Below are positions 13,407 to 38,961 of a DNA stretch of 43,233 nt, in pieces (the stretch's first letter is position 1; every line of letters begins with the position of its first letter). A program made the translations under genes and the position numbers. The stretch covers positions 1 through 43,233 of the forward strand of contig JAGLOY010000038.1 in assembly GCA_023138735.1 (NCBI GenBank). The letters run 5' to 3'. The notes under the pieces are model-generated. The model worked only from the letters and a program-made list of their open reading frames with translations. It was not told where the DNA came from and searched no databases. Origin of the DNA: Candidatus Aegiribacteria sp. GTDB lineage: Bacteria; Fermentibacterota; Fermentibacteria; Fermentibacterales; JCC-6.

Positions 13407-13614
13407 TTTCTAAGTTCAGTTTATCATGAAAGTGAGATGTTGTCAAGCAGTATTATCGATGATTAAATTGATCGAATGAAGAGAAGATCGGGTTCCAGGT
13501 CCTCAACCATTTCGTCCAATAGTGTCGTGAATATCGCTCCATCGGTTTTCAAATCAACTTTTTTGCGTTATGTTCTACAGGTATAACCCTCAACTGATGA
13601 GTGAACGGAGTATT

Positions 13615-14421
13615 TTGGAAAAACGGATAGTTGTTTCCTCGGATTGCAGAAAACTTGGCAAAACACTCCTTGCCGAACGTCTCATTAAAGAATTGACCTC
13701 AACCGGGATGACGGTTGCTTGTGTTAAACTGTCTCAAGGGGGGCACGGTCCTGCCGGAACCACATCCGGAGAGGGTCCACCCGGAACCGATACTCACCGT
13801 TTCAGTGTTGCCGGTGCTTCCGAAGTTATTTTTTTCAGGTATTCAACAGACAGCGAACTCGCGGACTCTGTTGGTGGATTTGTATTCCCGGCGGATATTG
13901 TGATCTTCGAGAGTAATTCGATTCTTAAGCTGCTGGATCCTGATTATCACATTCACATCCGTTCAAATTCCGGGCAGAAACAATCTGCGGAAGGACTGGA
14001 CTGCAAAGCAGACCTGACGACAGACGGCCCGGTATCCGCAGAAGATGCAGACAAGATCGCCAGACTGGTGCCGGGATTAATGCGGATCGGCGATTATTCT
14101 CCCGTAACAATCGGCGGCAAGCACTGGCTGAACCTTCATGGAATGCCACTCTTTGGCGAAGGGAGGATGGATCTCCTGAAGACTGTCCATGAGACAGGTT
14201 CCATTCTGCAGGCTGCAAAGAGAACCGGTATCCAGTACAAACGCGCCTGGGTACTGCTTCATGATGCTGAACAGCGTCTTGGTGCAAAACTGCTCCTCAG
14301 CGACAGAGGGGGAGCCGGAGGCGGAGGAACCAGTATCACTCCACTTGCTAAGGCTCTGCTGAACATTTGGGAAAAGTCTGAGAAGGATTTCAATAGAATG
14401 CTGGACAGGCTGGAGGTATGA
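13615..14421 (+). CDS. MobB-like P-loop domain fused to ModE-type winged-helix regulator
   Basis: This protein of about 268 residues opens the cofactor operon. The N-terminal half (about 165 residues) is a P-loop domain with SSDCRKLGKTLLAERLIKEL. It resembles MobB, which helps attach GMP to molybdopterin, but the first Gly of the Walker A motif is replaced. The C-terminal ~90 residues match the ModE DNA-binding domain (GRMDLLKTVHETGSILQAAK, then GIQYKRAWVLLHDAEQ and the RGGAGGGGTSITP wing). No molybdate-binding MOP/TOBE domain follows. It could couple cofactor or metal status to transcription. I prefer a TTG start at 13615, which has GGAG five bases upstream; ATGs at 13570 and 13597 lack a binding site. 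The stop overlaps the moeA ATG. Confidence 0.7.
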   Translation: MEKRIVVSSDCRKLGKTLLAERLIKELTSTGMTVACVKLSQGGHGPAGTTSGEGPPGTDTHRFSVAGASEVIFFRYSTDSELADSVGGFVFPADIVIFESNSILKLLDPDYHIHIRSNSGQKQSAEGLDCKADLTTDGPVSAEDADKIARLVPGLMRIGDYSPVTIGGKHWLNLHGMPLFGEGRMDLLKTVHETGSILQAAKRTGIQYKRAWVLLHDAEQRLGAKLLLSDRGGAGGGGTSITPLAKALLNIWEKSEKDFNRMLDRLEV

Positions 14422-15632
14422 TGATACCGCTTGAGGAAGCACTTAAACTGGTGCTCGATAATTCGGGAGAACCGGAGGTGGAAGAAGTCTCCATTGATGA
14501 GGCTGTCGGTCATGTACTGGCTTCCAATGTCTATTCGGATATCGATATGCCGCCTTTCAACCGATCGGCTATGGATGGATTTGCCATTTCAGGGGATGAT
14601 TTGAGGCACGAACTTCTAGAAGAAGTCACTGCTGGTGACGCCAGAGAGATCAGAATTAAACCGGGTATTGCATGCCCAATAATGACCGGGGCGTTAATAC
14701 CTGAAGGAGCAGACAGGATAGTGATCGTCGAGGAATCCGTCGTTGAGAATTCCATTCTGCACCTCGAAAAAGTGCCGCACGAAGGAGCGAACATCTGCTG
14801 GAAAGCTGAAGACATTAAAAAGGGGCAGCTTGTACTGGAACACGGAACGAGACTTTCCCAGCAGCATATGGGAATAGCGGCCATGGCTGGAAGGGGTGTA
14901 CTGCCTGTTTTTAGAAAACCCCGTATTGCCGTAGTAACTACCGGAACTGAAATAGTTTCCCCTACCTGGATACCATCACCGGGTCAGGTAAGAAATGCGA
15001 ACATGCCGCTGATTACTTCTCAGCTTTCACTGAGCGGTTTTCCGGTTGCATTGTCTGTTCATTCCGCTGATGATCCCGATTCCCTCAGGGCATCTATCGG
15101 GCAATTTCTGAGTTGCAGCGATATCCTCATAGTAGCTGGAGGAGTTTCGAAAGGCACGAAGGATTTCGTTCCATCAGTCCTTGAATCCCTCGGCGTGAAG
15201 CTGCATTTCAGGATGGTCGCACAGAAGCCTGGCAAACCATTAACATTCGGCAGCAGTACTGCAGGTATTCCGATCTTCGGACTCCCGGGCAACCCTGTGT
15301 CCGTAATGGTGTCGGTCGAGGAGTACGTACTCCCGCTCCTCCGGAAAAGATCCGGCTTCAAGGGATGCCACAAGCGGACATATCATGGTGAGATAACCTC
15401 TGATTACCGGAAGAAACCCGGCAGGCTGCATTTCCTCAGGGTAATCGCTTACAGGGAAGGCGATTCCTGGAGGCTTCATCATCCTGATTCTTCGGGTTCG
15501 GGGGATCTGATGAGTACTGTAAATGTTAATGCCCTCGCAATAGTCAGTGAAGATCAACTGAGTATTCAGGACGGAGAAATCCTTCCTTTTCACTTTTTCA
15601 GTTCCACTGCAGGCGAGCTTGCGTTCTCATGA
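14418..15632 (+). CDS. moeA: Molybdopterin molybdenumtransferase MoeA
   Basis: MoeA inserts molybdate or tungstate into adenylylated molybdopterin in the cytoplasm. This 404-residue protein has the normal MoeA length and domain order: the domain I/II start (DIDMPPFNRSAMDGFAI), the MogA-like domain III (RIAVVTTGTEIV, then ILIVAGGVSKGTKDFVP and IFGLPGNPVSVMVSVEEYV), and the C-terminal beta-barrel domain IV (RLHFLRV, HPDSSGSGDLMS). It overlaps the upstream stop by four bases (ATGA), with GGAGG right before it, and its own stop overlaps moaA. A second ATG three bases on is an equally possible start. In this window the metal is more likely tungsten. Confidence 0.95.
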   Translation: MMIPLEEALKLVLDNSGEPEVEEVSIDEAVGHVLASNVYSDIDMPPFNRSAMDGFAISGDDLRHELLEEVTAGDAREIRIKPGIACPIMTGALIPEGADRIVIVEESVVENSILHLEKVPHEGANICWKAEDIKKGQLVLEHGTRLSQQHMGIAAMAGRGVLPVFRKPRIAVVTTGTEIVSPTWIPSPGQVRNANMPLITSQLSLSGFPVALSVHSADDPDSLRASIGQFLSCSDILIVAGGVSKGTKDFVPSVLESLGVKLHFRMVAQKPGKPLTFGSSTAGIPIFGLPGNPVSVMVSVEEYVLPLLRKRSGFKGCHKRTYHGEITSDYRKKPGRLHFLRVIAYREGDSWRLHHPDSSGSGDLMSTVNVNALAIVSEDQLSIQDGEILPFHFFSSTAGELAFS

Positions 15633-16573
15633 GGGATTCAAAGGGGCGTGAAATCAACTACCTCAGGCTTTCAGTCACGGACAGGTGCAATATCAGATGC
15701 ATTTACTGTATGCCTGAATCAGGCGTTCCCCTTGTTTCTCATAATGATATTCTTTCTGTGGATGAGACTATCCGTCTTTCAGGGATAATCGTGAAGGCAG
15801 CTGATATCAGAAAAGTAAGAATAACCGGGGGAGAGCCGCTTGTAAGAAAAGGCGTCCTGGATATTGTGCGCGGCATCTCTTCTGGACATCCCGGTGAGCT
15901 TGTGCTTACAACAAACGGGCTCCTGCTTCGCGGTATGGCGAAGCAACTTGACGCTGCCGGAATCGAGAGGGTGAACATCAGCCTGGACAGCCTGAGGAAT
16001 GACAGGATACGCCTTATCTCCAGAAGGGATATACGTCTTGAAGATATTGAAGATGCTGTTGCAGCAGCTTTCGACGCAGGTCTTGACCCAGTCAAGGTAA
16101 ACTGCGTAGTCATGCGGGATATCAACGATGATGAGATAGAGGATTTCATAAAGTGGAGCAGGGAGACAGGCGTTACAGTCCGTTTCATTGAGCATATGCC
16201 GTCAAGGCTTTCAGGAGATACATTCGTCTCAAGGGATGAGATAATTAAGAAGGCTTCTGCTGGTGGTGAAGTCGTCAGACAGAAAGATGACGGCACAGCA
16301 GGTATTTATTCCGTTGGTGACAGCGGACAGACTTTCGGTATAATCGCGCCATTTTCCGATCCCATGTGCAGCTTCTGCAGCAGAATCAGGCTGTCAGCCC
16401 TGGGCACACTGCACTCCTGTCTTGCGCAGGAGGAGGGAGTATCACTTAAAGAGCTGCTGCGGAATGATGCAGGTGATGATGTTATTTCGGATATTGTGAG
16501 GGGAGCGGTAATGAATAAACCTGATTCCCATGGCGGATGTGTCCACGCGAAGATGTGGAAGATTGGCGGTTAG
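15629..16573 (+). CDS. moaA: GTP 3',8-cyclase MoaA (radical SAM)
   Basis: MoaA makes 3',8-cyclo-7,8-dihydro-GTP, the first step of molybdopterin synthesis, using S-adenosylmethionine and two [4Fe-4S] clusters. The radical SAM cluster ligands are Cys20, Cys24 and Cys27 in TDRCNIRCIYCMPE. The GGEP motif is at VRITGGEPLVRKG. The second cluster ligands are Cys247, Cys250 and Cys264 (CSFCSRIRLSALGTLHSC). The C-terminal Gly-Gly needed for activity is present (KMWKIGG). Length, 314 residues, is normal. It starts inside the end of moeA (ATGA overlap) and is followed by moaC, its next step in the pathway. Confidence 0.96.
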   Translation: MRDSKGREINYLRLSVTDRCNIRCIYCMPESGVPLVSHNDILSVDETIRLSGIIVKAADIRKVRITGGEPLVRKGVLDIVRGISSGHPGELVLTTNGLLLRGMAKQLDAAGIERVNISLDSLRNDRIRLISRRDIRLEDIEDAVAAAFDAGLDPVKVNCVVMRDINDDEIEDFIKWSRETGVTVRFIEHMPSRLSGDTFVSRDEIIKKASAGGEVVRQKDDGTAGIYSVGDSGQTFGIIAPFSDPMCSFCSRIRLSALGTLHSCLAQEEGVSLKELLRNDAGDDVISDIVRGAVMNKPDSHGGCVHAKMWKIGG

Positions 16574-16583
16574 TTTGAAGAAT

Positions 16584-17048
16584 ATGTCTCACATTGATGA
16601 AAAGGGGAATGCGAGGATGGTAGATGTTTCAACTAAGGAAGCCACCTCAAGAACGGCCACAGCCTCCGGGTGCATCGTACTGGGCAGCAACGCATCTGCC
16701 GCTATCGATGATGATTCGACCCCGAAGGGCGATGTCTTTTCAACTGCGAGAATTGGCGCTATAACCGCGGTGAAGAGAACCTGGGAGTTGATTCCTCTTT
16801 GTCATCCACTGAGAATCGGCGGAGTGGACATAGAATTCAGTAAGGATGGAAATACAATTAGCGTAACCTGCACTGTGAAGGGTGTGGAATCAACCGGTTT
16901 CGAGATGGAAGCCCTCACAGGTGTTACGACTGCTCTTCTTATTATATACGATATGACAAAAGCCCTGGACCGAGGCATGGAAATTGGAGAAGTAAGGCTG
17001 ATTCGGAAAAGCGGCGGGAAATCAGGAGAATACAAATGGCAAGGGTAA
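16584..17048 (+). CDS. moaC: Cyclic pyranopterin monophosphate synthase MoaC
   Basis: MoaC converts the MoaA product into cyclic pyranopterin monophosphate. This 154-residue protein has the whole family pattern: HIDEKGNARMVDVSTKEATSR at the start, GAITAVKRTWELIPLCHPL with the conserved LCHP, and FEMEALTGVTTALLIIYDM with KALDRGMEIGEVRLIRKSGGKSG at the end. I chose the ATG at 16584, eleven bases after the moaA stop. An upstream in-frame ATG (16530) lies inside moaA and adds residues foreign to the family. The 3' end overlaps the next gene by 13 bases. Confidence 0.95.
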   Translation: MSHIDEKGNARMVDVSTKEATSRTATASGCIVLGSNASAAIDDDSTPKGDVFSTARIGAITAVKRTWELIPLCHPLRIGGVDIEFSKDGNTISVTCTVKGVESTGFEMEALTGVTTALLIIYDMTKALDRGMEIGEVRLIRKSGGKSGEYKWQG

Positions 17049-18001
17049 GTGCGGTATGTCTATCAGAGAAAAGACAGACACTGAAAACAGAGCAGGACTC
17101 GGTGCAGCTGATTGAGAACTTCGGTATTGAAGGTGATGCACATGCCCGAAGCGGTCCCCGGCAGGTATCAATCCTCTCGGAGTTGTCCCTCGCGAAAATG
17201 GAAGCTAAAGGTGTTAGAACCTCACCAGGATGCTGCGGTGAGAATATAGATATCCACGGAACCGTCGAATTACACACACTTCTTCGGGGAGTACATCTGA
17301 AACTTGGCGAATCTGCTGTAGTAAGAGTCACAGAAATCGGGAAGGACAATACCGACGGTCATGCGGACAATGTTATCCAGAGCAACATTTTCCCGGTTGA
17401 AGGTGTTTTCACGGAAGTAATAACCGGAGGCGCGGTTAAACGGAACGATTCGGTTGAAGTACTCCGGAACAGCGGTTACACCGCGGGAGTACTGACTGTG
17501 AGTGATTCTGCTTCCAGAGGTGTCTACGAGGATCTGAGCGGCCCCGCTTTGATCAAATTACTCGAGAATAATGGTTTTCTTCCAGCAAGGTATGCCATTG
17601 TTCCCGATGAGCTGCCGCAAATAACAGCCAAGCTTACGAACTGGTGTGACGATGGTTTTCTGGACGTTCTGTTCACAACAGGTGGAACCGGATTTTCCGT
17701 CAGGGACATTACTCCTGAAGCAACCAGCGAGGTCTGTGACAGGCAAGTTCCCGGCATTCCGGAGATGATAAGGCAGAAGTCAGCTTTAATCGTTGAGTCG
17801 GCGTGGCTTTCAAGAGCCCGGGCAGGGATCAGAAAACGGACGCTGGTGATTAATCTTCCCGGAAGCAGAAAAGCTGCTGTAGAGTGCGCAGGTTTTGCGC
17901 TGCCGATACTAGTACACGCTCTGGAAATTCTCAGGGGAGATATCGATCATTGTGGTGGACAGGGGACTGGCTTGAATACCAGCCCCGTAATCAAAGCCTA
18001 G
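17036..18001 (+). CDS. MOSC domain-MogA/MoaB fusion protein
   Basis: This 321-residue fusion has an N-terminal MOSC domain (about residues 1-145; GIEGDAHARSGPRQVSIL, CCGENI, then PVEGVFTEVITGGAVK). The C-terminal part is a MogA/MoaB molybdopterin adenylyltransferase (about 148-310; AGVLTVSDSASRG, LFTTGGTGFSVRDITPEAT, then a NLPGS substrate loop). MogA adenylylates molybdopterin before MoeA adds the metal; the MOSC part is a sulfur- or cofactor-handling domain. In comparable small MOSC proteins the stretch before the PxEG motif usually contains cysteines. Here it reads EIGKDNTDGHADN and has none. The gene overlaps moaC and closes the operon. No moaE, and no moaD, lies in this operon. Confidence 0.88.
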   Translation: MARVSAVCLSEKRQTLKTEQDSVQLIENFGIEGDAHARSGPRQVSILSELSLAKMEAKGVRTSPGCCGENIDIHGTVELHTLLRGVHLKLGESAVVRVTEIGKDNTDGHADNVIQSNIFPVEGVFTEVITGGAVKRNDSVEVLRNSGYTAGVLTVSDSASRGVYEDLSGPALIKLLENNGFLPARYAIVPDELPQITAKLTNWCDDGFLDVLFTTGGTGFSVRDITPEATSEVCDRQVPGIPEMIRQKSALIVESAWLSRARAGIRKRTLVINLPGSRKAAVECAGFALPILVHALEILRGDIDHCGGQGTGLNTSPVIKA

Positions 18002-23868: not shown

Positions 23869-24711
23869 TCACTCAGTAATGACCAAAGGAACTGGTTCGA
23901 CAAGTAGGGTAGGTATAATCTCACTGCTGAAATCCCTGATGTTCACCTCGTAATAGAATGTATCTTCAGCAAGTAATTCATTTCCATCGAATTCAACAAA
24001 CCACATTTGGGGATTGTCGGTCTGTGGACGCTCAAAAACGGTGCGCCCCTCGCCAAGAGGACCGTTCCAGAGAAGCGGCTGGCACAGCGAGAACTGTAAT
24101 GGTTCAAGCCCTGTGATATAGGTCCAGCCGTGAATCAGATATTGCACCTGGACTACGATCTCTTCTTCGTCACTGCAGGGAATCACCCACATATCCACAT
24201 AGAATCGGCGGGTTTCCGGTACAGCGCTCCGGAAATCATCCTCAGAATCGAACTGTGATCTGTATTCCTCGATTGGGCGTAATCCATGGCTGGAAACTGT
24301 TCCGTTTCCGCAATTGTACGTGTGCATGTTTAAGACGGAATCGGCCTGGTACTCCCCGAGCATGGCCCGGGATTCCATCTCAATTCCGTTAACCGTAAAG
24401 GATTCGAGTTCCCGTGTCAGCTCGGGAGATACTCCCAGATCGAGGCATATGAGTATATCACATCCGGAAACAGGCGGAATGAGAACAAGTCTTTCGTTGA
24501 CCGTGTAATCCCAGTCAACATAATTGGACATTGTTTCATTCTCAACAGAAACAGGCATGATTGTCGCATACCACGATTCAAGTACAGCAAGGTTTTCAGA
24601 TGATTCTTCGCAGACCTGCCCGGTGCCGTCCACTCTGTAAACCGGGCAGAGCCAGGAAGCATATGAAGAACCTGCAAGGTATACGATTACTAAAACAACT
24701 CGAAAATTCAT
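23869..24711 (-). CDS. Exported hypothetical protein
   Basis: This 280-residue protein has a signal peptide (MNFRVVLVIVYLAGSSYA) and an acidic, Trp/Tyr-rich mature part with scattered Cys residues (WLCPVY, GQVCEE, GCDILICLD, YNCGNG, VIPCSD), consistent with disulfides outside the cytoplasm. A GGGAGGG site lies before the ATG. It follows the remnant of a nitroreductase gene on the same strand and may sit at the far end of the tungsten-enzyme transcript. I do not recognise the family. Confidence 0.65.
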   Translation of the reverse strand: MNFRVVLVIVYLAGSSYASWLCPVYRVDGTGQVCEESSENLAVLESWYATIMPVSVENETMSNYVDWDYTVNERLVLIPPVSGCDILICLDLGVSPELTRELESFTVNGIEMESRAMLGEYQADSVLNMHTYNCGNGTVSSHGLRPIEEYRSQFDSEDDFRSAVPETRRFYVDMWVIPCSDEEEIVVQVQYLIHGWTYITGLEPLQFSLCQPLLWNGPLGEGRTVFERPQTDNPQMWFVEFDGNELLAEDTFYYEVNIRDFSSEIIPTLLVEPVPLVITE

Positions 24712-24760
24712 CTATACCCTCCCTGTTACATGTACTCAACAATATCTTCAATAGAAGGTG

Positions 24761-24865
24761 AGCTGATTCAATAATATTCTCAAGCTGTTCTGGTGATATC
24801 TTTTTTTCGGGATCGAACTTCTTGCATGCATGACGGAATTTCAGGGTATCCAGAACCGCATTCAT
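24761..24865 (-). pseudogene. Nitroreductase remnant, N-terminal ~35 residues only
   Basis: The first ~35 codons (MNAVLDTLKFRHACKKFDPE, then KKISPEQLENIIESA) match the N-terminus of NfsB-type nitroreductases, flavin enzymes of about 200 residues. After ESA, where the family continues with RLSPSSFG-like sequence, similarity stops at once. The frame runs on without meaning into the next gene. A normal ribosome binding site (GAGAGGA) precedes the ATG, 17 bases after the MoaD-like stop. The simplest reading is a gene that lost most of its length by deletion. Confidence 0.65.
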
Positions 24866-24882: not shown

Positions 24883-25116
24883 TTATCCGCCTGACATCAG
24901 GTGGATTATGTCTACAGTTGCTTCATCGGGAACTACCGATGAATCGTACTCATCCCTGGGTATGAGTTTTCCGTTGATTCGTACGATAAGAAGAGGAAAG
25001 ATGTAATTCTTTTCCTTAATGACATCACTTACAGTTTTACCCCGGGACCATTCTGTCTGTTCGCTGTTAACAACTATCATACTGTCAGCGGCGGGGACAA
25101 TTGTCCCCGCCTGCAA
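24883..25116 (-). CDS. MoaD/ThiS-like ubiquitin-fold sulfur carrier
   Basis: The core (MIVVNSEQTEWSRGKTVSDV to the end) has the beta-grasp layout of MoaD/ThiS and ends in the Gly-Gly (HLMSGG) that is activated by adenylylation and thiocarboxylated. In molybdopterin synthesis MoaD donates sulfur to cyclic pyranopterin; MoaD-like proteins also accompany AOR operons. It is the last intact gene of the split-AOR operon. The ThiF-like enzyme at 30400 is its likely activator. Start choice: TTG at 25116 has GGAGG seven bases upstream but adds 12 residues encoded by a palindrome. The ATG at 25080 fits the usual family N-terminus but has no binding site. Confidence 0.8.
   Translation of the reverse strand: MQAGTIVPAADSMIVVNSEQTEWSRGKTVSDVIKEKNYIFPLLIVRINGKLIPRDEYDSSVVPDEATVDIIHLMSGG
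25090..25111. repeat. 22-bp perfect palindrome at the MoaD-like gene start
   Basis: A perfect 22-bp palindrome has arms GGCGGGGAC and GTCCCCGCC around AATT. It lies between the stop of the NuoG-AOR fusion gene (25120) and the ATG at 25080. As RNA it would form a 9-bp GC-rich hairpin with an AAUU loop. No T-run follows on either strand, so it is not a classic terminator. It could stabilise or process the mRNA, set the level of the last gene, bind a protein, or be a REP-type sequence. Confidence 0.7.
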
Positions 25117-25119
25117 ATA

Positions 25120-27108
25120 TCAACCTCCGTGTTTTTTTACAAGTTCAATTACATCCGGGAAATCAATGCCGAGTTCCTGAAGTTTATCGAGCGTCGGAAC
25201 GCCATCGTTCGTCCAGCCCCTGCGTTTGTAGACCGCGTCCAGCAGTTGCTCGTACTGCGCTTCCCGGTATTTACGCATGGCCGTAACCTTCTCTTCAGAG
25301 GACATTCCGGAGGGATCGATCCCAACTTCCTCACTTAGCTGAGCGTCGTACCTGTCCTGTCGTGATTCGTACTCAGTAACAGTGACAGGTCCTGCAGATC
25401 TGTACGGTATTGCATCATGCTCACGTTTTCCGAAACCCATCTTCAGGTTGAATACTCGCTGGAAGTTGTAGACCTTCTCGGACATACTTATCAGGCTGTC
25501 CATGGTTTGAGGCTTCCCTGTTACTCCTTCGAAGAATTCGCAGTATCCCTGGACATGTCCCGGTACTTTTGCCGGTTCATCCGTTTCGGCATTATCCGCC
25601 GGCTCAACATCGTTCCAGGGAAGCTTGCAGAGTCCGCAGAGGCCAAACCATGTTCTCCACATGGGGAAGTAATGCAGGGCTTCAGCTTTGTCTGCAAAGG
25701 TCGGTATCTGTTTGTTCACCATGTCCATGAAGATGAGCCATGCTTCGTCATGCTGCGCACCTTTGAGGGCAATACCATAACCACCCTGCTGGGCAAGAGA
25801 TTCTTTGGTTACGTATTCGGAGTATTCCATTCCCTTGGCTTCCATACCGATATCAAACACGAAATCGGGATCGGCTCCAAAGTTCTCCACGAAGTACTTT
25901 TTCATGTAGCGGATACCCTTACCGGCGATGAGCCCGAAACCTTCTCCACGGCCGATCTGATGAAGGAGTTCAAGGGCAGCGTCCCTGGCTCCGAATGGAA
26001 TCTCGAGCCCTCCGGTCTTTTCCTTATCGAGAACACCGGCTTCGTAACACTCCATGACAAAGGATACTCCCGTTGCGAAGGAGATAGTGTCCAGTCCGTA
26101 TGTGTCACAGTAGAAGTTGTACTCGATCACGAAACGGGGATCGAAAATACCCATATTGGCTGAACCGCCCAGAGTTTCGTATTCAGGGCCATCAACAAGG
26201 ACTTTTTCTCCCTTATAGGGTCCGGTTGAAAGCTGGAAATCCTCGACGGCCTTTGCGCAGGCCATAGTACACCCAAGCCAGCATCCATCCGGCTTACCTT
26301 TTGTGAAGAATGTTCTTAGGACATCGGAGCTGATCTTCGGAGTATCTGCATGTTTTCCGTAGCGGTAGTTCATGACAGGGAGGAGATCGTAGGCATCCAT
26401 TATCTCGACAAGGTGGGCGGTTCCCACTCCACGCATGTCGCACTGTTCCTCATCGAACTTTATCATCTCCTCTGTTATTCTCATGCCTGCGCGGCGAACC
26501 ATATCGGCGTCAAAGGGCTGGTTAGGGTCGTCAACCATGGTTATTGCCCCGGTAGGACATATTTCGGCACAGGCTCCGCATCCGATACAGTGGGGCTGGT
26601 CGGAATCGTAGGGCATTCGAACCGCCCTTACCGCACCCCTGTTCGTGAAGTTAATGATGTTCTCCCAGATACCCTGTTCGCAAATTCTCATGCAGAGACC
26701 GCACAGAATGCAGGCGTTGGGATTCAGATCGACAGCAGGATGCTTATAGCGGGGTTTTTCGATCCGGACAAATTTAGCAAGATCCTTGATGATCTGTACA
26801 TTGGGCCATCTGGAAAGCATCATCTCCAGCGTGATTGTCCTGTTCCTGAGTACCTTATCCGAAGAGGTATACACTGTTACGGGCTTCCGAACCGGATAAT
26901 TACATGATGTAACCAGTTTTGCTCTTCTTCCGTCATCCACCTCTACAATGCAGAGCCTGCATGCAGCATATGGTTCTACAAGTTCACTGTGGCAGAGAGC
27001 CGGGATGAAAATGTTATTCTCCAATGCGGCTTCAAGAATGGTTGAATCCCTTTTAACCGGGATCGATCTGCCATCAATTGTGATTGTTATCATTTCTATT
27101 TCAGTCAT
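25120..27108 (-). CDS. NuoG-like iron-sulfur module fused to AOR domains 2-3 (tungsten oxidoreductase large part)
   Basis: This 662-residue fusion has an N-terminal [2Fe-2S] ferredoxin domain (Cys39, Cys50, Cys53, Cys69). Two [4Fe-4S] sites follow (Cys133/136/139/143 and Cys174/177/180/184); the NuoG His-Cys cluster is missing. From about residue 205 it becomes AOR domains 2-3: VGTAHLVEIMDAYDLLPVMN, the cluster cysteines 276, 280 and 284 with a later Cys at 491 or 494, DGPEYETLGG (Glu309/311), YGLDTISFATG and the active-site-type His453 in KGAQHDEAW. AOR domain 1 is absent and is encoded separately at 29437-30240. The first AOR cysteines are spaced CxxxCxxxC rather than the usual CxxCxxxC. 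It starts by TAATG overlap with the NuoF-like gene. It would carry electrons between the tungstopterin and the flavin subunit. Confidence 0.88.
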   Translation of the reverse strand: MTEIEMITITIDGRSIPVKRDSTILEAALENNIFIPALCHSELVEPYAACRLCIVEVDDGRRAKLVTSCNYPVRKPVTVYTSSDKVLRNRTITLEMMLSRWPNVQIIKDLAKFVRIEKPRYKHPAVDLNPNACILCGLCMRICEQGIWENIINFTNRGAVRAVRMPYDSDQPHCIGCGACAEICPTGAITMVDDPNQPFDADMVRRAGMRITEEMIKFDEEQCDMRGVGTAHLVEIMDAYDLLPVMNYRYGKHADTPKISSDVLRTFFTKGKPDGCWLGCTMACAKAVEDFQLSTGPYKGEKVLVDGPEYETLGGSANMGIFDPRFVIEYNFYCDTYGLDTISFATGVSFVMECYEAGVLDKEKTGGLEIPFGARDAALELLHQIGRGEGFGLIAGKGIRYMKKYFVENFGADPDFVFDIGMEAKGMEYSEYVTKESLAQQGGYGIALKGAQHDEAWLIFMDMVNKQIPTFADKAEALHYFPMWRTWFGLCGLCKLPWNDVEPADNAETDEPAKVPGHVQGYCEFFEGVTGKPQTMDSLISMSEKVYNFQRVFNLKMGFGKREHDAIPYRSAGPVTVTEYESRQDRYDAQLSEEVGIDPSGMSSEEKVTAMRKYREAQYEQLLDAVYKRRGWTNDGVPTLDKLQELGIDFPDVIELVKKHGG

Positions 27109-28976
27109 TAGAGTACCTCCACCGCATCGAAGTTACATACTTCCCTGCAGACTCCGCAGTGAATACACTTCTCCTGATCTATCATATGCTGTTCCTTCAG
27201 GCTGCCCTCGATTGCGTCCACCGGACAGTTTCTGGCGCAGATTGTACAGCCGGTACAGTTATCAGCGATAATCCTGTACTCAATAAGTGCCTTGCACTTG
27301 AGTGCAGAGCATTTACCCTCCCGGATATGGTCTTCGTATTCTTTCCTGAAATACCTGATTGTGCTGAGAACCGGATTAGCTGCTGTCTGACCCAGCGCGC
27401 ACAGGCTGCTTTCGGACATATTCTGTCCATATTCCTCGAGAAGCTCAATGTCACCCTGGCGACCATCCCCGTTGGTGATCCGATCCAGAATTGTCCCGAG
27501 GGCGACGAGTCCTTCCCTGCAGGGAGTGCACTTACCGCAGGATTCATCCTTCAGGAAATCAACGAAGTACTTTGCCACCTGGATCATGCATGTGGAGTCG
27601 TCCATGACAACCATTCCACCCGAGCCCATCATTGAGCCAACTTCAGTGAGAGTATCGAAATCCACGGGAAGGTCAAGTTTGTCAGCGGGGAGGACTCCTC
27701 CGGAAGGGCCTCCTGTCTGTACTCCCTTGAATTCTTTGCCATCGGGAATACCTCCACCGATATCGTAGATGATCTCACGGAGAGTTATTCCCATTGGTAC
27801 TTCAACGAGACCGATGTTGTTCACGTCTCCAACAAGAGAGAAAACCTTGGTCCCCGATGATCCATTCCAGGGATTCTCAGAGACATCGCCTGTTCCGATG
27901 GATGCGAACCATTGGGCTCCCTTTTCCATTATCAGTGGAATATTTGCCCAGGTCTCAACGTTATTCAGAACAGTTGGCCTATCTTTGTAGCCCCTTTCAA
28001 CAGAGCGGACGTATTTTGCTCGTGGTTCCCCCGGGTTGCCGGCCATGGAAGCCATCAGAGCTGAGGATTCACCGCACACGAAGGCTCCTGCTCCTCTGTG
28101 CACCACGATATCAAAATCGAATCCGGTATTGAAGATGTTCTTTCCAAGAAGGCCATACTCACGCGATTGGCTTATAGCGATGATCAAGCGTTGCATGGCA
28201 AGAGGATATTCCTTACGGATGTAGATGTATCCCCTGCTGGCTCCCACTGCATAGGCGCCGGTCAGCATTCCCTCTATTACACAGTGAGGATCTGCCTCTA
28301 TTATGCTTCTATCCATGAAAGCGCCCGGGTCTCCCTCATCGGCGTTGCATATCACCGATGGAGGATATCCGGTTTTCTCAACGGCCTGGGCACACGATTG
28401 CCATTTCACTCCAGCTGGGAAACCACCGCCTCCCCGGCCTCTAATGCCTGAACGAATGATCTCAGTGATCACTTCTTCAGGTTTCATCGTTGTAAGTAAT
28501 TTGTGCAGAGCCTGATATCCATCAAGTCTGAAGTAATCTTCGATTTTCTCCGGATTGATCATTCCTTTGTGCCGCAGAGCAAGAAGCTTCTGCTTTCCGA
28601 AGAACGGAATATTCTCCATCTTCGGAACAGCTACTCCGTTATGATGATAAAGAAGCCTTTGCACAGGCTCTCCGCCCAGCAGATGTTTCTCTATAATTTC
28701 CGGGATATCGCTGATTGTAAGCTCCTCGTAGAATATTCCCTCAGGCTGAACCACCATAATGGGACCCTGGGCGCAGAACCCGTTGCACCCGGTCGGCACC
28801 ACCAGGTACTTTTCCAGCAGATTACGTTTCTCAAGCTCCTCATTCAGAGCTTTGACAAGATTGAAGGATTTGTTTGCAACACACGCTGTTCCTGTGCATA
28901 CCATAAGTGCCGCACTGTAGTTTTCGTACTCTTCGAGGGCTTTCTGCTGCATCTGTTTCAACTGATCAATTGTCAT
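27108..28976 (-). CDS. NuoF/HydB-like NADH-binding flavin and iron-sulfur subunit
   Basis: This 622-residue subunit has four parts. The N-terminal thioredoxin-like [2Fe-2S] domain uses Cys27, Cys32, Cys64 and Cys68. The FMN/NADH-binding core has SGIRGRGGGGFPAGVKW (about 176-192), NADEGDPGAFMDR and GAGAFVCGESSALMAS. The N3-type [4Fe-4S] ligands are Cys480, 483, 486 and 526 (SCGKCTPCREG). A C-terminal two-cluster ferredoxin uses Cys574-584 and Cys604-614. This is the HydB layout of NAD-linked, often electron-bifurcating, complexes. It should exchange electrons with NAD(H). Its stop overlaps the next start. No hydrogenase H-cluster gene lies nearby, so its partner is the AOR module. Confidence 0.93.
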   Translation of the reverse strand: MTIDQLKQMQQKALEEYENYSAALMVCTGTACVANKSFNLVKALNEELEKRNLLEKYLVVPTGCNGFCAQGPIMVVQPEGIFYEELTISDIPEIIEKHLLGGEPVQRLLYHHNGVAVPKMENIPFFGKQKLLALRHKGMINPEKIEDYFRLDGYQALHKLLTTMKPEEVITEIIRSGIRGRGGGGFPAGVKWQSCAQAVEKTGYPPSVICNADEGDPGAFMDRSIIEADPHCVIEGMLTGAYAVGASRGYIYIRKEYPLAMQRLIIAISQSREYGLLGKNIFNTGFDFDIVVHRGAGAFVCGESSALMASMAGNPGEPRAKYVRSVERGYKDRPTVLNNVETWANIPLIMEKGAQWFASIGTGDVSENPWNGSSGTKVFSLVGDVNNIGLVEVPMGITLREIIYDIGGGIPDGKEFKGVQTGGPSGGVLPADKLDLPVDFDTLTEVGSMMGSGGMVVMDDSTCMIQVAKYFVDFLKDESCGKCTPCREGLVALGTILDRITNGDGRQGDIELLEEYGQNMSESSLCALGQTAANPVLSTIRYFRKEYEDHIREGKCSALKCKALIEYRIIADNCTGCTICARNCPVDAIEGSLKEQHMIDQEKCIHCGVCREVCNFDAVEVL

Positions 28977-28988
28977 TTCCGGCCCTCC

Positions 28989-29444
28989 TTAACTGAATCT
29001 TTTTATGATGCTGGGTACTTCGTTAGATTTGACTCCACCCATAACCTCATCACCAATGGTAACAACGGGAGCGAGTCCGCATGCGCCGACACATCTGACT
29101 TCGGTAAGTGTATATTTACCGTCCGGTGTCGTTTCTCCGCTTGAAATACCAAGAGTCCTTTCGAGGGCTGCAAGCACGTCCGCTGCCCCCTTTACGTAAC
29201 ATGCTGTTCCCATGCAGACCTGTATTTCCGTTTCGCCCCTCTGCTCAAGACTGAAAGCATTGTAGAAGGTGGCTATATGAAACAGTTTGCCCCTTGGTTT
29301 TTCGGTTCTGTCAGCAATCCTTTCAAGGGCTTCCTTCGGGATGTATCGGAACTCGTCCTGAACATCCTGCATCATCTCGATAACGAAATCGGGATCCGTG
29401 TTCCATTTCTCAATAATAGCGTCCACTATTTTCAAATTAATCAT
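28989..29444 (-). CDS. NuoE/HydC-like [2Fe-2S] subunit
   Basis: This 151-residue protein has the normal NuoE length. An N-terminal helical part (MMQDVQDEFRYIPKEALERI) is followed by a thioredoxin-like [2Fe-2S] domain with Cys77, Cys82, Cys118 and Cys122 (QVCMGTACYVKG and RCVGACGLAP). It passes electrons within the NuoEF pair. I chose the ATG at 29444, which has GGAGG six bases upstream and overlaps the end of the AOR N-domain gene by eight bases. That overlap implies translational coupling of the AOR half with the Nuo subunits. Confidence 0.93.
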   Translation of the reverse strand: MINLKIVDAIIEKWNTDPDFVIEMMQDVQDEFRYIPKEALERIADRTEKPRGKLFHIATFYNAFSLEQRGETEIQVCMGTACYVKGAADVLAALERTLGISSGETTPDGKYTLTEVRCVGACGLAPVVTIGDEVMGGVKSNEVPSIIKRFS

Positions 29445-30240
29445 TGGACACCTCCCCTGCATCCTGCTGAGAAATTGTCCATGCGGGTCTTGTCTGGGGA
29501 GCCTTCACTACAAGAGCTTTCAGCCCTTTGTTCCGGAAGACTGTGCCCGTTCCACCCCTTCCGGCCTGCTTCAGCCTCATGGCTCTTCTCCTCCAGTCCC
29601 ACCATGAGAAATTCAGGCATCCGATCCATGCATGTTCAGCACCGGCACCGGCTGAGACCGTTGAAATATGCCGCTTGTCATCATCATCTTTGGAGTACAT
29701 CTCGGCCAGCTCCTCCGCAGCCAGGTGTGAATTCACAGAAAGAAGCGGGGATTCAATCACCTGAACCCTACCGTTTATACCGTCGATGAAGATGATCAGA
29801 TCAACTTCAGATTTTCCGGTGAGAACAAGGCAGTCAAAACCGGAGAACTTCAGCAGGGGACCGAAATGCCCTCCAACATTGGAATCCACTACGGATCCCG
29901 TCGTGGGGGATATGGTTGTGACAATAGACTTGCCTGCACCCGAGAAAGAAGTTGTACCTCCGAGCGGTCCTGCAGCTATGCATATAGCATTCTCAGGACT
30001 GTCCCATTTTGTGAATGAGGTTACTTCCTGCCACAGCATCCAGAGATCGAATCCTTTTCCACCGGTGAAAACATCTTTCATTTTCTCCGTTACCGGTACG
30101 ATCCTGAAGGAAGGTTCTGAGATATCAATTCGGAGCATTTCCCCGGTGTACCCTTTTATGGAGGGTCTGGGGCTGTACTCGAACGTACCAAGAACCTTCT
30201 GTTTCTCAAGAATCTCACCGGCGTTGCGTGCGTTTGCCAT
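29437..30240 (-). CDS. Stand-alone AOR N-terminal domain (tungstopterin-binding half)
   Basis: This 267-residue protein equals domain 1 of aldehyde:ferredoxin oxidoreductase and stops where domain 2 would begin. It has YTGEMLRIDISEP at the start (about residues 31-43). It also has the pterin-binding motifs ICIAAGPLGGTTS (87-99), VGGHFGPLLKFSGFD (122-136) and AGRGGTGTVFRNKGLKALVV (226-245). In known AOR, about 600 residues, this domain and the two others bind one tungsten bis-pterin; here the rest is encoded at 25120-27108. I chose the ATG at 30240 because GGGAG lies seven bases upstream. It is the first gene of the operon, so both halves are made from one mRNA. Confidence 0.9.
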   Translation of the reverse strand: MANARNAGEILEKQKVLGTFEYSPRPSIKGYTGEMLRIDISEPSFRIVPVTEKMKDVFTGGKGFDLWMLWQEVTSFTKWDSPENAICIAAGPLGGTTSFSGAGKSIVTTISPTTGSVVDSNVGGHFGPLLKFSGFDCLVLTGKSEVDLIIFIDGINGRVQVIESPLLSVNSHLAAEELAEMYSKDDDDKRHISTVSAGAGAEHAWIGCLNFSWWDWRRRAMRLKQAGRGGTGTVFRNKGLKALVVKAPQTRPAWTISQQDAGEVSND

Positions 30241-30399
30241 AGAAAACTCCCTGCGATTGCGCCTGTAATAGTAAAAGAATCTGTTAAGAGTGATTATTAC
30301 CACAGAAATATACGCATGAAAGCTACAAACTGCAGGGGTCGGAAACAACCCTCCGAAAAGGGCTCTGGCAGATCTGGAAGTGATTGCTTAGAATCAAAT

Positions 30400-31008
30400 A
30401 TGATGGAAGTAGAAACCAACGCATTTCAGAACAATCCTCCCGGCCTTACGGTACTTCTAAACACCGCGTCAGTGGGTATTACCGGAGCCGGCGGGGTAGG
30501 ATCGAATGTTGCTGCTTCACTGGTTCGTGCCGGAATAGGCAGGCTTGTGATAGCCGATTTCGATTCTGTTGAACTGCCAAACCTTAACAGGCAATTTTTT
30601 TTCAGGGATCAGATAGGATATCCAAAGGTTGAGGCTCTGAAATACAATCTGAAGCTCATAAACCCCGATGCTGAAATCGAGATTCACACCAGGCTCATCG
30701 ATCCTGAAAATGCCTGTTCGATCTTTGCTGACTGTGATGTCCTTGTTGAAGCGGTCGACAGGGAGGAAACCAAAGTGATGCTCCTTGAATCCTGGCTTCG
30801 CGGATTACCCCGTAAACCTGTATTCTCCTGCTCCGGTATTGCAGGTTTCGGAAGGACCGATTCGATCAGAGTTGACAGGCGCCAGAACCTTACGATTGTT
30901 GGAGATCAGGAAAGTGATCTTTCCATGGGTACGCTTTCCTCAAGAGTAGCTGTTGTGGCCGCCATGATGGCCAACGAGATCATCGAATATTTCTTCTCAT
31001 CGAAGTAA
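30400..31008 (+). CDS. ThiF/MoeB/HesA-like adenylyltransferase
   Basis: ThiF/MoeB proteins adenylylate the C-terminal Gly-Gly of ThiS/MoaD. This protein of about 202 residues has the nucleotide-binding GAGGVGSNVAASLVRAGIG, DFDSVELPNLNRQFF (the Asp and Arg of the active site) and the crossover region (VLVEAVDREETK). It lacks the zinc CxxC pairs and the rhodanese domain of larger MoeB proteins, as in the short ThiF family-2 type. It is divergent from the split-AOR operon that ends in a MoaD-like gene, its likely partner. Starts at 30316, 30400 or 30403 are possible and none has a clear binding site. It ends next to the convergent phosphatase gene. Confidence 0.82.
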   Translation: MMEVETNAFQNNPPGLTVLLNTASVGITGAGGVGSNVAASLVRAGIGRLVIADFDSVELPNLNRQFFFRDQIGYPKVEALKYNLKLINPDAEIEIHTRLIDPENACSIFADCDVLVEAVDREETKVMLLESWLRGLPRKPVFSCSGIAGFGRTDSIRVDRRQNLTIVGDQESDLSMGTLSSRVAVVAAMMANEIIEYFFSSK

Positions 31009-34606: not shown

Positions 34607-34664
34607 TGAGCTTCTTGCTATTGTAGCTCGAATACTGTTCAAGATAATAGAAAGAAGATTGATC

Positions 34665-35525
34665 ATGATACGACACATCTTCAGAGGAATACTGATTACC
34701 TCGGTTCTCATCGCGGCTTGCAGCGGACAATCAGAGCCATCAGCAGAATCCGTTCCCCCGCGACCGAGTGCCGGCAGATTGAGGGTAGCTACAACTACCA
34801 GCCTGTACGATACCGGCCTGTGGAGCTACCTTGAGCCGATGTTTGAAGATGAATATGGAATTGAACTCGATGTACTCTACGCGGGAACCGGCAAAGCTCT
34901 TGAATGGGGACGAAGAGGTGATGTTGATGTGATCACTGTCCATTCCAGAACCAGGGAAGAGCAATTCGTTGATGAGGGGTATGGTCTTGAGCGTGTCCCG
35001 TTCGCGTGCAACTATTTCCTTATTGTGGGGTCACCTGATGATCCTGCAGGTCTTGAAGGAATGTCCCCGGAGGAGGCTTTCACAACTCTAATGAACAGCG
35101 GTGAGGCTGTTTTTGTTTCGAGGGGTGACGATTCCGGTACTCATGGCAGGGAAAAAACCATCTGGGCTGCCGTCGGTTTCGATTACGAGGGTGTTCGAAC
35201 ATCTGGTGACTGGTACGTTGAGGGTGGAAGCGGAATGGGACCAACGCTTGTCATGGCGGACGAAATGAACGCATACACTCTATCGGATATGGGAACCTTT
35301 ATCGCTTACCAGAGTGATCTGGATCTGGTGCCTGTAGTGAACCAGGGTGATTTGCTTCTGAATGTCTATTCAGTACTCGAAGTTACATCAACCAGGAATC
35401 CCGAGATGGCAGAAAATCTCGTTGAATTCATTACTTCTGAAAGCGTGCAGGAGCTTATCGGAAACTACGGTGTTGATGAGTACGGCATACAGCTGTTCAC
35501 TCCCTGTGCCGGGCTGGACATGTAA
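34665..35525 (+). CDS. tupA: Tungstate ABC transporter substrate-binding lipoprotein TupA
   Basis: This 286-residue protein has a lipoprotein signal (MIRHIFRGILITSVLIAAC). The mature part carries the TupA signature TTTSLYDTGLW, then AGTGKALEWGRRGDVDVI and SRGDDSGTHGREKTIW. These residues place it with tungstate-specific TupA rather than molybdate ModA. It should capture tungstate outside the membrane for TupB/TupC. I chose the ATG at 34665 (AAAGAAG upstream) over a TTG six bases earlier. It begins the tupABC operon and fits with the tungsten enzyme encoded about 4 kb away. Confidence 0.93.
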   Translation: MIRHIFRGILITSVLIAACSGQSEPSAESVPPRPSAGRLRVATTTSLYDTGLWSYLEPMFEDEYGIELDVLYAGTGKALEWGRRGDVDVITVHSRTREEQFVDEGYGLERVPFACNYFLIVGSPDDPAGLEGMSPEEAFTTLMNSGEAVFVSRGDDSGTHGREKTIWAAVGFDYEGVRTSGDWYVEGGSGMGPTLVMADEMNAYTLSDMGTFIAYQSDLDLVPVVNQGDLLLNVYSVLEVTSTRNPEMAENLVEFITSESVQELIGNYGVDEYGIQLFTPCAGLDM

Positions 35526-35533
35526 GGCAGTTT

Positions 35534-36226
35534 ATGTCACAGTTACTGCAAGCTGTTCGTATTTCACTTGATATGATAATCTCAGGAGACCCTGTGGTGT
35601 ATTCTATCGCATTTCGAACCCTGCTGATATCGATCAGTGCCACGGCTCTGGCATCATTCATTTTCATCCCTCTCGCTTGCATGATTCATTTCAACCGATT
35701 CAGAGGAAAAAGATTTCTTCTCAGTATTATTCAGACATTTTACAGCATACCCACGGTGCTAGTGGGTATGCTTGTATTTCTGTTCATCTCCAGAGCAGGT
35801 CCTCTTGGAAGCCTTGGAATGCTGTTTTCACCAGGTGCAATAGTACTTGGCGAAGTTCTCCTGATAGCTCCCATTATTACAGGACTGACCATATCTGCTC
35901 TCGCAGGCTTGGGAAGGAATATCTCGGATACTGCTTTATCTCTCGGAGCAGGGCAGCTGCAGATGGTTCTCAAGGTACTGTCCGAGTCCAGATATATGGT
36001 ATTGACCGCGGTTCTCATGGGGTTCGGCAGGGCAGTATCGGAGATTGGCGTGGCAATCATTGTCGGGGGTAATATCTCCGGTTACACGAGGACTCTCACA
36101 ACGGCTATCGCGCTTGGAGTTGGAAAGGGAGAGACAGCAGCTTCAATTGCCCTGGGTATCATCCTTCTCGCTCTTGCCATGATCGTGAGCTTAACCGTAA
36201 ATATCCTTCAGCACAGCGAGAAGTGA
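35534..36226 (+). CDS. tupB: Tungstate ABC transporter permease TupB
   Basis: This 230-residue inner-membrane permease has five or six hydrophobic helices. Its ABC permease loop reads LGEVLLIAPIITGLTISALA, with the EAA-like stretch SDTALSLGAGQLQMVLKVLSES and a following GFGRAVSEIGVAIIVGGNI typical of TupB/ModB relatives. It lies eight bases after tupA, and its stop overlaps tupC (TGATG). It forms the membrane channel for tungstate import. Confidence 0.93.
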   Translation: MSQLLQAVRISLDMIISGDPVVYSIAFRTLLISISATALASFIFIPLACMIHFNRFRGKRFLLSIIQTFYSIPTVLVGMLVFLFISRAGPLGSLGMLFSPGAIVLGEVLLIAPIITGLTISALAGLGRNISDTALSLGAGQLQMVLKVLSESRYMVLTAVLMGFGRAVSEIGVAIIVGGNISGYTRTLTTAIALGVGKGETAASIALGIILLALAMIVSLTVNILQHSEK

Positions 36227-37275
36227 TGATACTTGAACTTGATAATATCGTTCAGAGGAAGAACGGACAGCAGATCCTCAGTGACGTGGATCTGTCTATT
36301 TCCATGGGCGCATTCTTTGTTCTTATGGGTCCGACCGGATGCGGTAAAACAACTCTTCTCAGGCTGACAGGCCTTCTTGATAAACCATCTTCAGGTTGTA
36401 TTAAATACAGAGGCGAACCAGTTCCCTATCGCGGCAAAGAGAGATTAAAACTCCGCCGGAGAATGGTCACTGTTTTTCAGAGACCTGTTCTGTTCAGAGG
36501 TAGTGTGAACTCAAATGTCGAGTGGGGATTAAGGATAAGAGGAATCCCCGAGGATGAGATCGGCAGGCAGGTTTCGAGGGTGCTTGGAATGGTGGGTCTG
36601 GAAGGATATGAGAATCGTGATTCCAGTACTCTTTCAGGCGGTGAGCTGCAGCGTGTCGCGCTGGCAAGAGCCCTCGTGATTGAACCGGAAATCCTGATAC
36701 TTGATGAACCGACTACATCGCTTGATCCGAACCTGAGGCTCAGCCTGCTCCGAAGACTGAAGGATCTTCATTCCCAGACCGGTATCACGTTTATCATGGC
36801 TACTCATGATTTTACAGATGCACTGTCTCTGGGTACGAGCGGTGCAGTAATGAGGAGCGGCAGGATAGAGCAGACTGGAACGATTGACGAGATCTTCTAC
36901 AGCCCATCGACTCCTTTCATGGCATCGTTTGTTGGAATGAAGAATGTTTTCCCTGCGGAATTCAGCCCAGATGGAGCTGTAGTGGAAGAACTTCTTGTCA
37001 GGCATACATCGAACAGGAGAGGGCACGGTTTTCTGGCAATACCGCCCGAAGCGATAGTTGTCTCGAGGGAGACCACAGTTACCAGCGAGCGGAATCATTT
37101 TACGGGAACGATAGTATCTGTTGAACGCGCAGGTCCGGTTTTCAGTATATCTGTGGATTGCGGTAATCTGATAATAGTATCATCCGTTACCAGAAGCGCT
37201 CTTTCCGAGCTGGGTCTGACAGAAGGTCGAGATGTATACATATCGTTCAAGGCAAGTGCCGTGCATGTTTTCTGA
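36226..37275 (+). CDS. tupC: Tungstate ABC transporter ATP-binding protein TupC
   Basis: This 349-residue ATPase has Walker A GPTGCGKTTLL, a Q-loop (VTVFQRPVLF), the ABC signature STLSGGELQRVALARAL, Walker B ILILDEPTTSLD and the switch His (MATHDFTDAL). A C-terminal TOBE-like domain (about 240-349; GTIVSVERAGPVFSISVDCG) may sense oxyanion. The start is the ATG overlapping the tupB stop; a GTG one codon earlier is possible. Confidence 0.93.
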   Translation: MILELDNIVQRKNGQQILSDVDLSISMGAFFVLMGPTGCGKTTLLRLTGLLDKPSSGCIKYRGEPVPYRGKERLKLRRRMVTVFQRPVLFRGSVNSNVEWGLRIRGIPEDEIGRQVSRVLGMVGLEGYENRDSSTLSGGELQRVALARALVIEPEILILDEPTTSLDPNLRLSLLRRLKDLHSQTGITFIMATHDFTDALSLGTSGAVMRSGRIEQTGTIDEIFYSPSTPFMASFVGMKNVFPAEFSPDGAVVEELLVRHTSNRRGHGFLAIPPEAIVVSRETTVTSERNHFTGTIVSVERAGPVFSISVDCGNLIIVSSVTRSALSELGLTEGRDVYISFKASAVHVF

Positions 37276-38265: not shown

Positions 38266-38961
38266 TTAAAGTCGGATAGTTACCTCTTCAGCCAGGTTCA
38301 TCTTCTTAATGATACTTGCCGTATCCTCAAGATAACCTTTGGGATAGGTGGGCATATCCCTGAACTCAGCAGAAAGTGTCTTTTTCGAATGAAAATTCTG
38401 GAGAACGTATCGTCTTACAATTCCGACCTCCTGAAGAAGCTCGATGACATCGTCACGATCAACTATACCTGGAACCATTGTAGTTCTGAATTCGTAATCC
38501 GGCTGAGTCATGATAATGTCTATGGATTCCCGGACATCTGAGAAAGCAGCCTGCCCTCCTGTAGCCTTCAAATACTTTGAGGGAGAGCTTTTAAGATCCA
38601 TTGCAACGTAATCCGCAAAACGAAGCACATCTTTCATACATTGAGGAAGGGTTCCGTTGGTATCAACTTTAACAAGGAGGTCTGTTCCGGTTTTAATGCT
38701 CTGAACCAGATCAACGATACCACTGTACAGAAGAGGTTCCCCTCCTGTAACGGTTACGGCTTCAATAAAGCCCTCCCGCGTAATCAGCTCTTTGATGACT
38801 TCCTCATGGGTAAGCCTGAATTCTTTATCCAGCATATCCGGTCTTACAAGTTCAGGATTATGGCAATAGGGACACTGAAGATTGCAGCCGGATATAAATA
38901 TTATTGATGATAACTTGCCTGGGTATTCTATCAGGCTTGTGCCTGTGAGGGATCGGATCAA
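38266..38961 (-). CDS. nrdG: Anaerobic ribonucleotide reductase activating enzyme NrdG (radical SAM)
   Basis: This 231-residue radical SAM enzyme makes the glycyl radical on NrdD. The cluster ligands are in ISGCNLQCPYCHNPELV (Cys26, Cys30, Cys33), with GGEPLLYSG as the SAM-binding GGE motif and MDLKSSPSKY further on. The N-terminal TSLIEYPGKLSSIIF is typical of the PflA-like NrdG type. The start is a TTG that overlaps the stop of the glycyl-radical ORF (TTGA), so it is translated in step with its substrate. Confidence 0.9.
   Translation of the reverse strand: MIRSLTGTSLIEYPGKLSSIIFISGCNLQCPYCHNPELVRPDMLDKEFRLTHEEVIKELITREGFIEAVTVTGGEPLLYSGIVDLVQSIKTGTDLLVKVDTNGTLPQCMKDVLRFADYVAMDLKSSPSKYLKATGGQAAFSDVRESIDIIMTQPDYEFRTTMVPGIVDRDDVIELLQEVGIVRRYVLQNFHSKKTLSAEFRDMPTYPKGYLEDTASIIKKMNLAEEVTIRL

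Follow-up and report, generated by a model that had tools for sequence, protein, structure and literature searches.

A divided aldehyde oxidoreductase around an NADH module in Candidatus Aegiribacteria: a probable electron-bifurcating tungsten enzyme with a two-chain catalytic subunit

Gene content of the operon

The window analyzed here is the whole of contig JAGLOY010000038.1 (43,233 nucleotides; assembly GCA_023138735.1) from a Candidatus Aegiribacteria genome. On its minus strand lies an operon of five genes, which encode, in this order, domain 1 of an aldehyde oxidoreductase (AOR), here called AORN; a NuoE-like protein; a NuoF of the HydB/BfuB type; a fusion of the N-terminal ferredoxin domains of NuoG (NuoG-N) to AOR domains 2 and 3 (AORC); and the ThiS-like protein WorX (Table 1). 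This order had been proposed in a sequence-only reading of the stretch and is borne out by Pfam matches to AFOR_N, NuoE, NuoF, Fer2_4/dicluster/AFOR_C, and ThiS, all on that strand. The same reading placed overlaps at two of the four junctions, and both are present: AORN and NuoE overlap by 26 bases if NuoE begins at its first ATG or by 8 if it begins at a later one (MINLK start), and NuoF overlaps the fusion by 1 base. The NuoE-NuoF and fusion-WorX junctions are gaps of 12 and 3 bases, respectively.

Table 1. Coordinates of the operon and of associated genes in the window
Feature	Position	Strand	Evidence
AORN, AOR domain 1 as a separate 267-aa protein	29437..30240	-	AFOR_N (Pfam 29440-30240)
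NuoE / BfuC-like [2Fe-2S] subunit, 157 aa	28989..29462	-	2Fe-2S_thioredx (Pfam 28992-29462)
NuoF / BfuB (HydB)-like FMN, NADH, Fe-S subunit, 622 aa	27108..28976	-	Pfam 27111-28976
Fusion: NuoG-N / BfuA-like ferredoxin domains (~1-200) and AOR domains 2-3 (~201-662)	25120..27108	-	Pfam 25123-27108
WorX, ThiS-like protein	24883..25116	-	ThiS E 3.3e-08 (Pfam 24883-25113); TIGR01683 above cut-off
ThiF-family adenylyltransferase, divergent neighbor of the operon	30316..31008	+	ThiF E 2.4e-34
TupA-, TupB-, and WtpC-like tungstate ABC transporter genes	34659..37275	+	best or second-best NCBIfam models
Pterin cofactor operon: ModE-domain protein, MoeA, MoaA, MoaC, MOSC-MoaB	13570..18001	+	NCBIfam / similarity

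AORN matches the AFOR_N profile over positions 2-197 of 199 (E 2.6e-43), and the fusion, which also carries Fer2_4 and 4Fe-4S dicluster domains, matches AFOR_C over positions 9-385 of 385 (E 6.1e-90). Because both profile matches are nearly complete, the cut falls at the border between domains 1 and 2. When aligned to 1aor, AORN covers residues 3-210 and the AOR part of the fusion runs from residue 241 onward, so that complementary halves cover the same chain, and the predicted models agree. The profile and 1aor alignments thus uphold the earlier claim that AOR motifs are divided between two proteins at this border. The AlphaFold model of AORN has a predicted local distance difference test (pLDDT) score of 89.6, and Foldseek returned nine PDB matches with an E value of <0.001, all of them AOR-family chains (TMq 0.63-0.69), with 1aor as the best. 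AORN residues N121 and R228 are invariant in all 46 sequences aligned, comprising that of the window and 45 of the 65 available from split and unsplit forms. We take PfAOR N93 and the arginine motif that corresponds to R228 to be located at the pterin.

The fusion also matches 9mqx_A, 8c0z, and 9mqx_D, and the closest PDB chain to the NuoG-N part is 9mqx chain A; a Foldseek search with the fusion model likewise returned 9mqx chain A and AOR chains as top matches. In a 2026 classification of tungsten oxidoreductases (PMC13328260), Thr243, Glu313, Tyr427, and His448 of PfAOR are named for most aldehyde-oxidizing members of the tungsten oxidoreductase (WOR) family, and the alignment places these at T230, E311, Y432, and H453 of the fusion. 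All four are invariant in the 37 fusion proteins aligned (the window's and those of 36 of the 53 related loci described below), as are 16 cluster cysteines, namely, C276, C280, C284, and C494 of the AOR part and twelve in NuoG-N. Since there is no cysteine between residues 70 and 132, the window fusion would lack an A3-type cluster.

NuoE matches 2Fe-2S_thioredx (E 2e-46) and has four ligand-type cysteines. NuoF combines Complex1_51K and NADH_4Fe-4S domains with a 2Fe-2S thioredoxin-like domain at the N terminus and 4Fe-4S domains at the C terminus, and it contains an FMN motif, an NADH loop, and 23 cysteines, including extra cluster cysteines at both ends. Its nearest PDB chains are HydB 7q4v_B and 9mqx_B, the latter from a bifurcating tungsten aldehyde oxidoreductase; the Pfam domains and the 7q4v_B match confirm the HydB layout with extra ferredoxin clusters that had been read from the sequence. 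According to PMC9304861, BfuBC of the Bfu family carries six Fe-S clusters, five of them in B and one in C, and features such as these in NuoF are associated with bifurcating BfuB, B2-B5 being missing from nonbifurcating homologs. Individual cysteines of NuoF and NuoE can be assigned to clusters only tentatively.

Recurrence of the split arrangement

A genome scan, with one genome per species, yielded at least 544 confirmed relatives, from which 80 loci were kept: the fusion occurs in 53 of these (L040-L092), and the other 27 (L093-L119) are unsplit. The fused loci bear, as deposited, about twelve labels at the phylum level, spanning Fermentibacteria (Aegiribacteria and Sabulitectum), Cloacimonadota, Armatimonadota, Eisenbacteria, Myxococcales/Deltaproteobacteria, Coatesbacteria, Aminicenantes, Acidobacteriota, Bdellovibrionales, KSB1, Muiribacteriota, Krumholzibacteriota, and CSSED10-310. 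Among named relatives, those nearest to the window belong to metagenome-assembled genomes (MAGs) of Fermentibacteria (L040 and L041; 93% identity). Closer to the window, the 662-residue fusion is nearly full length in one frame in 22 of 146 genomes, its own included, and in pieces in some others. That the split recurs in 53 loci of other genomes rules out an origin by assembly error or frameshift. In a plasmid collection (250 records matched), the five listed matches are all AORs at 24-26% identity, with the NuoG-N part uncovered.

At all 42 fused loci with enough upstream sequence, AORN leads the operon, and whichever other parts occur follow in the same order; at the remaining 11 of the 53, the contig begins within the operon, so that any AORN would lie beyond its edge. 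Four separate genes, as in the window, occur at 17 loci, and also at L048 and L054, where AORN is cut at the contig edge. Elsewhere, AORN is fused to NuoE (7 loci: L067, L070, L071, L072, L077, L082, and L085) or to both NuoE and NuoF (12 loci: L069, L075, L076, L078, L079, L081, L083, L084, L086, L088, L089, and L091), and these 19 fusions tie AORN to the NADH module. At L053, AORN is separate and NuoE and NuoF are joined and degenerate; at L087, AORN is accompanied by mere remnants of NuoE and NuoF. The Coatesbacteria locus L065 has AORN and the fusion alone, with NuoE and NuoF gone from the operon. Because its genome (G144) holds further NuoF homologs elsewhere, their supply in trans is possible.

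Some copies are interrupted. The copy in Sabulitectum silens JCC-6 (L092 3684-8981, the frameshifted one of the 42; L037 3935-9232) is spread over several frames, likely through assembly errors. In the Krumholzibacteria MAG locus L081 (6956-8980), NuoG-N of the fusion is divided by an in-frame stop.

Motifs of the NADH module were scored in 39 split rows, i.e., the 40 split rows of the tree described below minus L036, which lies outside the NuoF alignment. The FMN motif, the NADH loop, B1, and the NuoE ligands are kept in 30 of these, 25 of which keep all eight features, and core NuoE or NuoF features are lost in nine (L053, L056, L065, L069, L076, L086, L087, L089, and L091). L056 lost the NADH loop alone, which may be a sequence error, and the missing N-terminal cluster of L055 may stem from how the protein was delimited for scoring. 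The nine decayed rows require at least seven changes on the tree, a count that is blind to loss versus gain. The NuoG-N and AOR ligands are intact in the decayed forms aligned (eight of the nine, L087 being left out). Judged by these motifs, the NADH module has decayed in several lineages and the split of AOR has been retained. Six loci (L053, L069, L076, L086, L089, and L091) retain in the operon NuoE/NuoF without NADH, flavin, or cluster motifs, and at five of them these are fused to AORN.

Phylogeny and origin of the split

In a quick tree of the joined halves (82 rows, including 40 split rows), 36 unsplit proteins form one clade with a Shimodaira-Hasegawa-like approximate likelihood ratio test (SH-aLRT) support of 99, and L039, although labeled unsplit, is an outgroup paralog. 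Far outgroups aside, a single branch thus separates split from unsplit forms. The root as drawn is placed among the split rows at very low support, two Cloacimonadota split rows stand beside the unsplit clade, and the outgroup branches are very long. Constraining the 40 split rows together gave a slightly better likelihood and was not rejected (approximately unbiased test, p-AU 0.554), so that a single origin of the split form is allowed. Unsplit relatives (L033, L034, and L035) were also seen in genomes G023, G022, and G021 of a family with mostly the split form, and G022 belongs to the same genus group as split genomes.

The linker between the AORN and AORC profile matches is 10-15 residues long in the 36 unsplit relatives, and that between NuoG-N and AORC is 3-4 residues long in all 53 fusions measured (52 scan loci and L036). 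The gene order would be most simply explained as an ordinary AOR whose short linker joining domains 1 and 2 holds a NuoEFG (BfuABC) cassette. Across 30 operons with all parts, the window's included, pairwise distances correlate strongly between AORN and AORC (r 0.91) and between NuoG-N and AORC (r 0.91).

Comparison with known systems

The closest known system is class IV WOR, or Wor-Bfu (WorABC with WorSL; Acetomicrobium mobile and Eubacterium limosum; 9mqx), which likewise joins AOR catalytic domains to a BfuABC-type module, represented here by the NuoE, NuoF, and NuoG-N homologs, and has WorX nearby. However, its WorL is one chain of 604 residues (9mqx_D) and its WorS a separate Fe-S subunit, whereas in the split operon WorL is divided and its C-terminal part is fused to WorA. 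A divided catalytic subunit in WorSL-WorABC, given as precedent in the sequence-only reading, is therefore not supported. The five genes of the operon, to which the search for WorS was confined, include none for this subunit.

Type 1 Bfu enzymes, as described in the available part of PMC9304861, also place a catalytic domain after the BfuA ferredoxin domains; those mentioned there carry H-cluster, Nfn, Fdh, or F420 domains, with no AOR or two-chain catalytic domain among them. Type 2 enzymes have a BfuA without A3 and A5 and separate S and L subunits, unlike the catalytic part here, which is fused to BfuA. Class II benzoyl-CoA reductase (BamBCDEFGHI) likewise pairs an AOR-family subunit with a BfuABC-like module, but BamB is one chain (4z3w; 653 residues) and the complex has BamC and HdrA-like parts, unlike the split operon. 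The unsplit AORs of the same clade (L026-L035 and L093-L119) have domains 2-3 54-71% identical to those of the window and are single chains without NuoE, NuoF, or NuoG-N; a 4Fe-4S protein is encoded immediately upstream in 8 of 37, with several contigs ending too near to tell.

The classification in PMC13328260 selected proteins in which the N-terminal (IPR013983) and C-terminal (IPR001203) domains occur together in a single protein. Since AFOR_N and AFOR_C here lie in two, the split branch would, by that method, fall outside the survey. No split AOR appears among the titles listed in searches of open-license papers or in the parts of PMC13328260, PMC9304861, PMC12096430, and PMC7311640 that were covered (supplements lying outside this scope), and the terms "aldehyde" and "tungsten" are absent from PMC11406978 and PMC13082233.

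Genomic setting

Within the pterin operon, MoaA and MoaC score above NCBIfam cut-offs and MoeA, MoaB, MOSC, and ModE are assigned by similarity. The ModE-like domain of the first gene is C-terminal, after an N-terminal part without an identified domain, and in the last gene MoaB is fused with a MOSC-like part. A WtpA gene lies beside two other split loci, above both NCBIfam cut-offs at L042 and above one of two at L078; WtpB and WtpC of both are below cut-off. A search of the window's own genome with the L042 WtpA gave no match, and the TupA-like genes of the window were then found. A ThiF-like gene (by BLAST cluster) lies near 26 of the 53 split loci; in PMC13328260, the ThiS-like neighbor is termed WorX, and both it and ThiF are linked to the processing of pterin.

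Directly 3' of WorX, at 24596-24865, is a short nitroreductase-like open reading frame (89 aa) that falls slightly below the Pfam cut-off and is perhaps a truncated gene. An anaerobic ribonucleotide reductase and a radical SAM protein (38266-41241) are ordinary for an anaerobe.

Interpretation and alternative explanations

The recurring split arrangement suggests an active site assembled from two chains. We propose that the operon probably encodes an electron-bifurcating tungsten aldehyde oxidoreductase whose catalytic subunit consists of two chains united by the NADH module. Its mode of action is most likely that of class IV WOR, with electrons passing from aldehyde to NAD+ and ferredoxin, minus the one-chain WorL and WorS. 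AORN and AOR domains 2-3 would close one tungstopterin pocket upon assembly of NuoE-NuoF-NuoG-N. Electrons from the aldehyde would then move via tungsten to the [4Fe-4S] cluster of the AOR part (C276/C280/C284/C494), to two [4Fe-4S] clusters and the [2Fe-2S] cluster of NuoG-N, which would stand in for WorS, and through the NuoE/NuoF clusters and FMN to NAD+ and ferredoxin together. An NAD- and ferredoxin-linked tungsten enzyme had already been proposed from the sequence; the 7q4v_B and 9mqx_A/B matches and the conserved aldehyde-oxidation residues support that inference. The pterin and TupABC-like genes of the window and the WtpA genes beside L042 and L078 also speak for it, indirectly where tungsten is concerned.

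The same two-chain enzyme might instead be a plain NAD-linked aldehyde oxidoreductase, or reduce NAD and ferredoxin uncoupled, which we consider unlikely. Such a nonbifurcating enzyme would suit two articles, in which both acceptors are reducible directly by aldehyde oxidation (PMC9304861) and the endergonic transfer step is not shown for WOR1 (PMC12096430); nevertheless, NuoF has the extra clusters that PMC9304861 reports missing from nonbifurcating homologs, and its best PDB matches are HydB and a bifurcating enzyme. The direction or substrate could also differ, with NADH and ferredoxin driving the reduction of an acid or some other low-potential compound, in the manner of the Bam benzoyl-CoA reductase branch. 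BamB is itself an AOR-family protein that operates with a BfuABC-like module, and AORN is nearly as close to 4z3w as to 1aor. This role is nonetheless improbable, as domains 2-3 match 4z3w weakly (E 5.9e-07), all four residues named for aldehyde-oxidizing members are kept, and the operon has no HdrA-like BamDE gene.

It is highly improbable that domain 1 and domains 2-3 are neighbors only, sharing no site, with the fusion working alone or with another AOR. The genome does hold two further AORs that are full length by their frames (626 and 657 residues), the circumstance that the sequence-only reading had named as damaging to its case; as partners, however, both are remote in the tree, AORN is fused to NuoE or NuoF at 19 loci and precedes the fusion wherever its position can be seen, and N121 and R228 are invariant.

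Several observations weigh against a two-chain bifurcating tungsten enzyme. A lysine occupies the position aligned to PfAOR Arg76 in all 46 AORN sequences, and distances for NuoF and AORC correlate less than those for the other parts (r 0.64; the same 30 operons). The AlphaFold model of the fusion (pLDDT 82) is weak in active-site loops, falling below 50 at 275-281, 449-461, and 511-514, regions that include C276/C280 and H453; this could fit a pocket without its other half or be ordinary model weakness. The scores of the TupABC-like genes are all below curated NCBIfam cut-offs, and the genome holds other molybdopterin-family genes, with four PF00384 matches and one PF02738 match (molybdopterin-oxidoreductase and xanthine-oxidase families), so tungsten is the probable rather than the certain metal, and the pterin genes need not serve the split AOR alone. 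Also, given the uncertain rooting of the tree, either cassette insertion or re-fusion may have given rise to the two forms.

Why the split persists invites a more tentative idea. Because the two halves hang on different arms, AORN-NuoE-NuoF and NuoG-N-AORC, the tungsten site might close only after the module assembles. Such gating might prevent uncoupled aldehyde oxidation; decayed NuoE and NuoF would then be scaffolds, and L065 would encode an NAD-free two-chain enzyme. We regard this as possible, with the balance tilting against it.

Class IV WOR and Bfu modules are already known; what is new is most likely the two-chain catalytic subunit in a bifurcating tungsten oxidoreductase. A buried metal-pterin site would here be built from two chains, the catalytic subunit having two of its domains set apart by a whole bifurcating cassette. 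The natural series of unsplit, split, and partly fused forms, and of forms in which the module has decayed or is gone, makes the contribution of the bifurcating module to the catalytic site testable.

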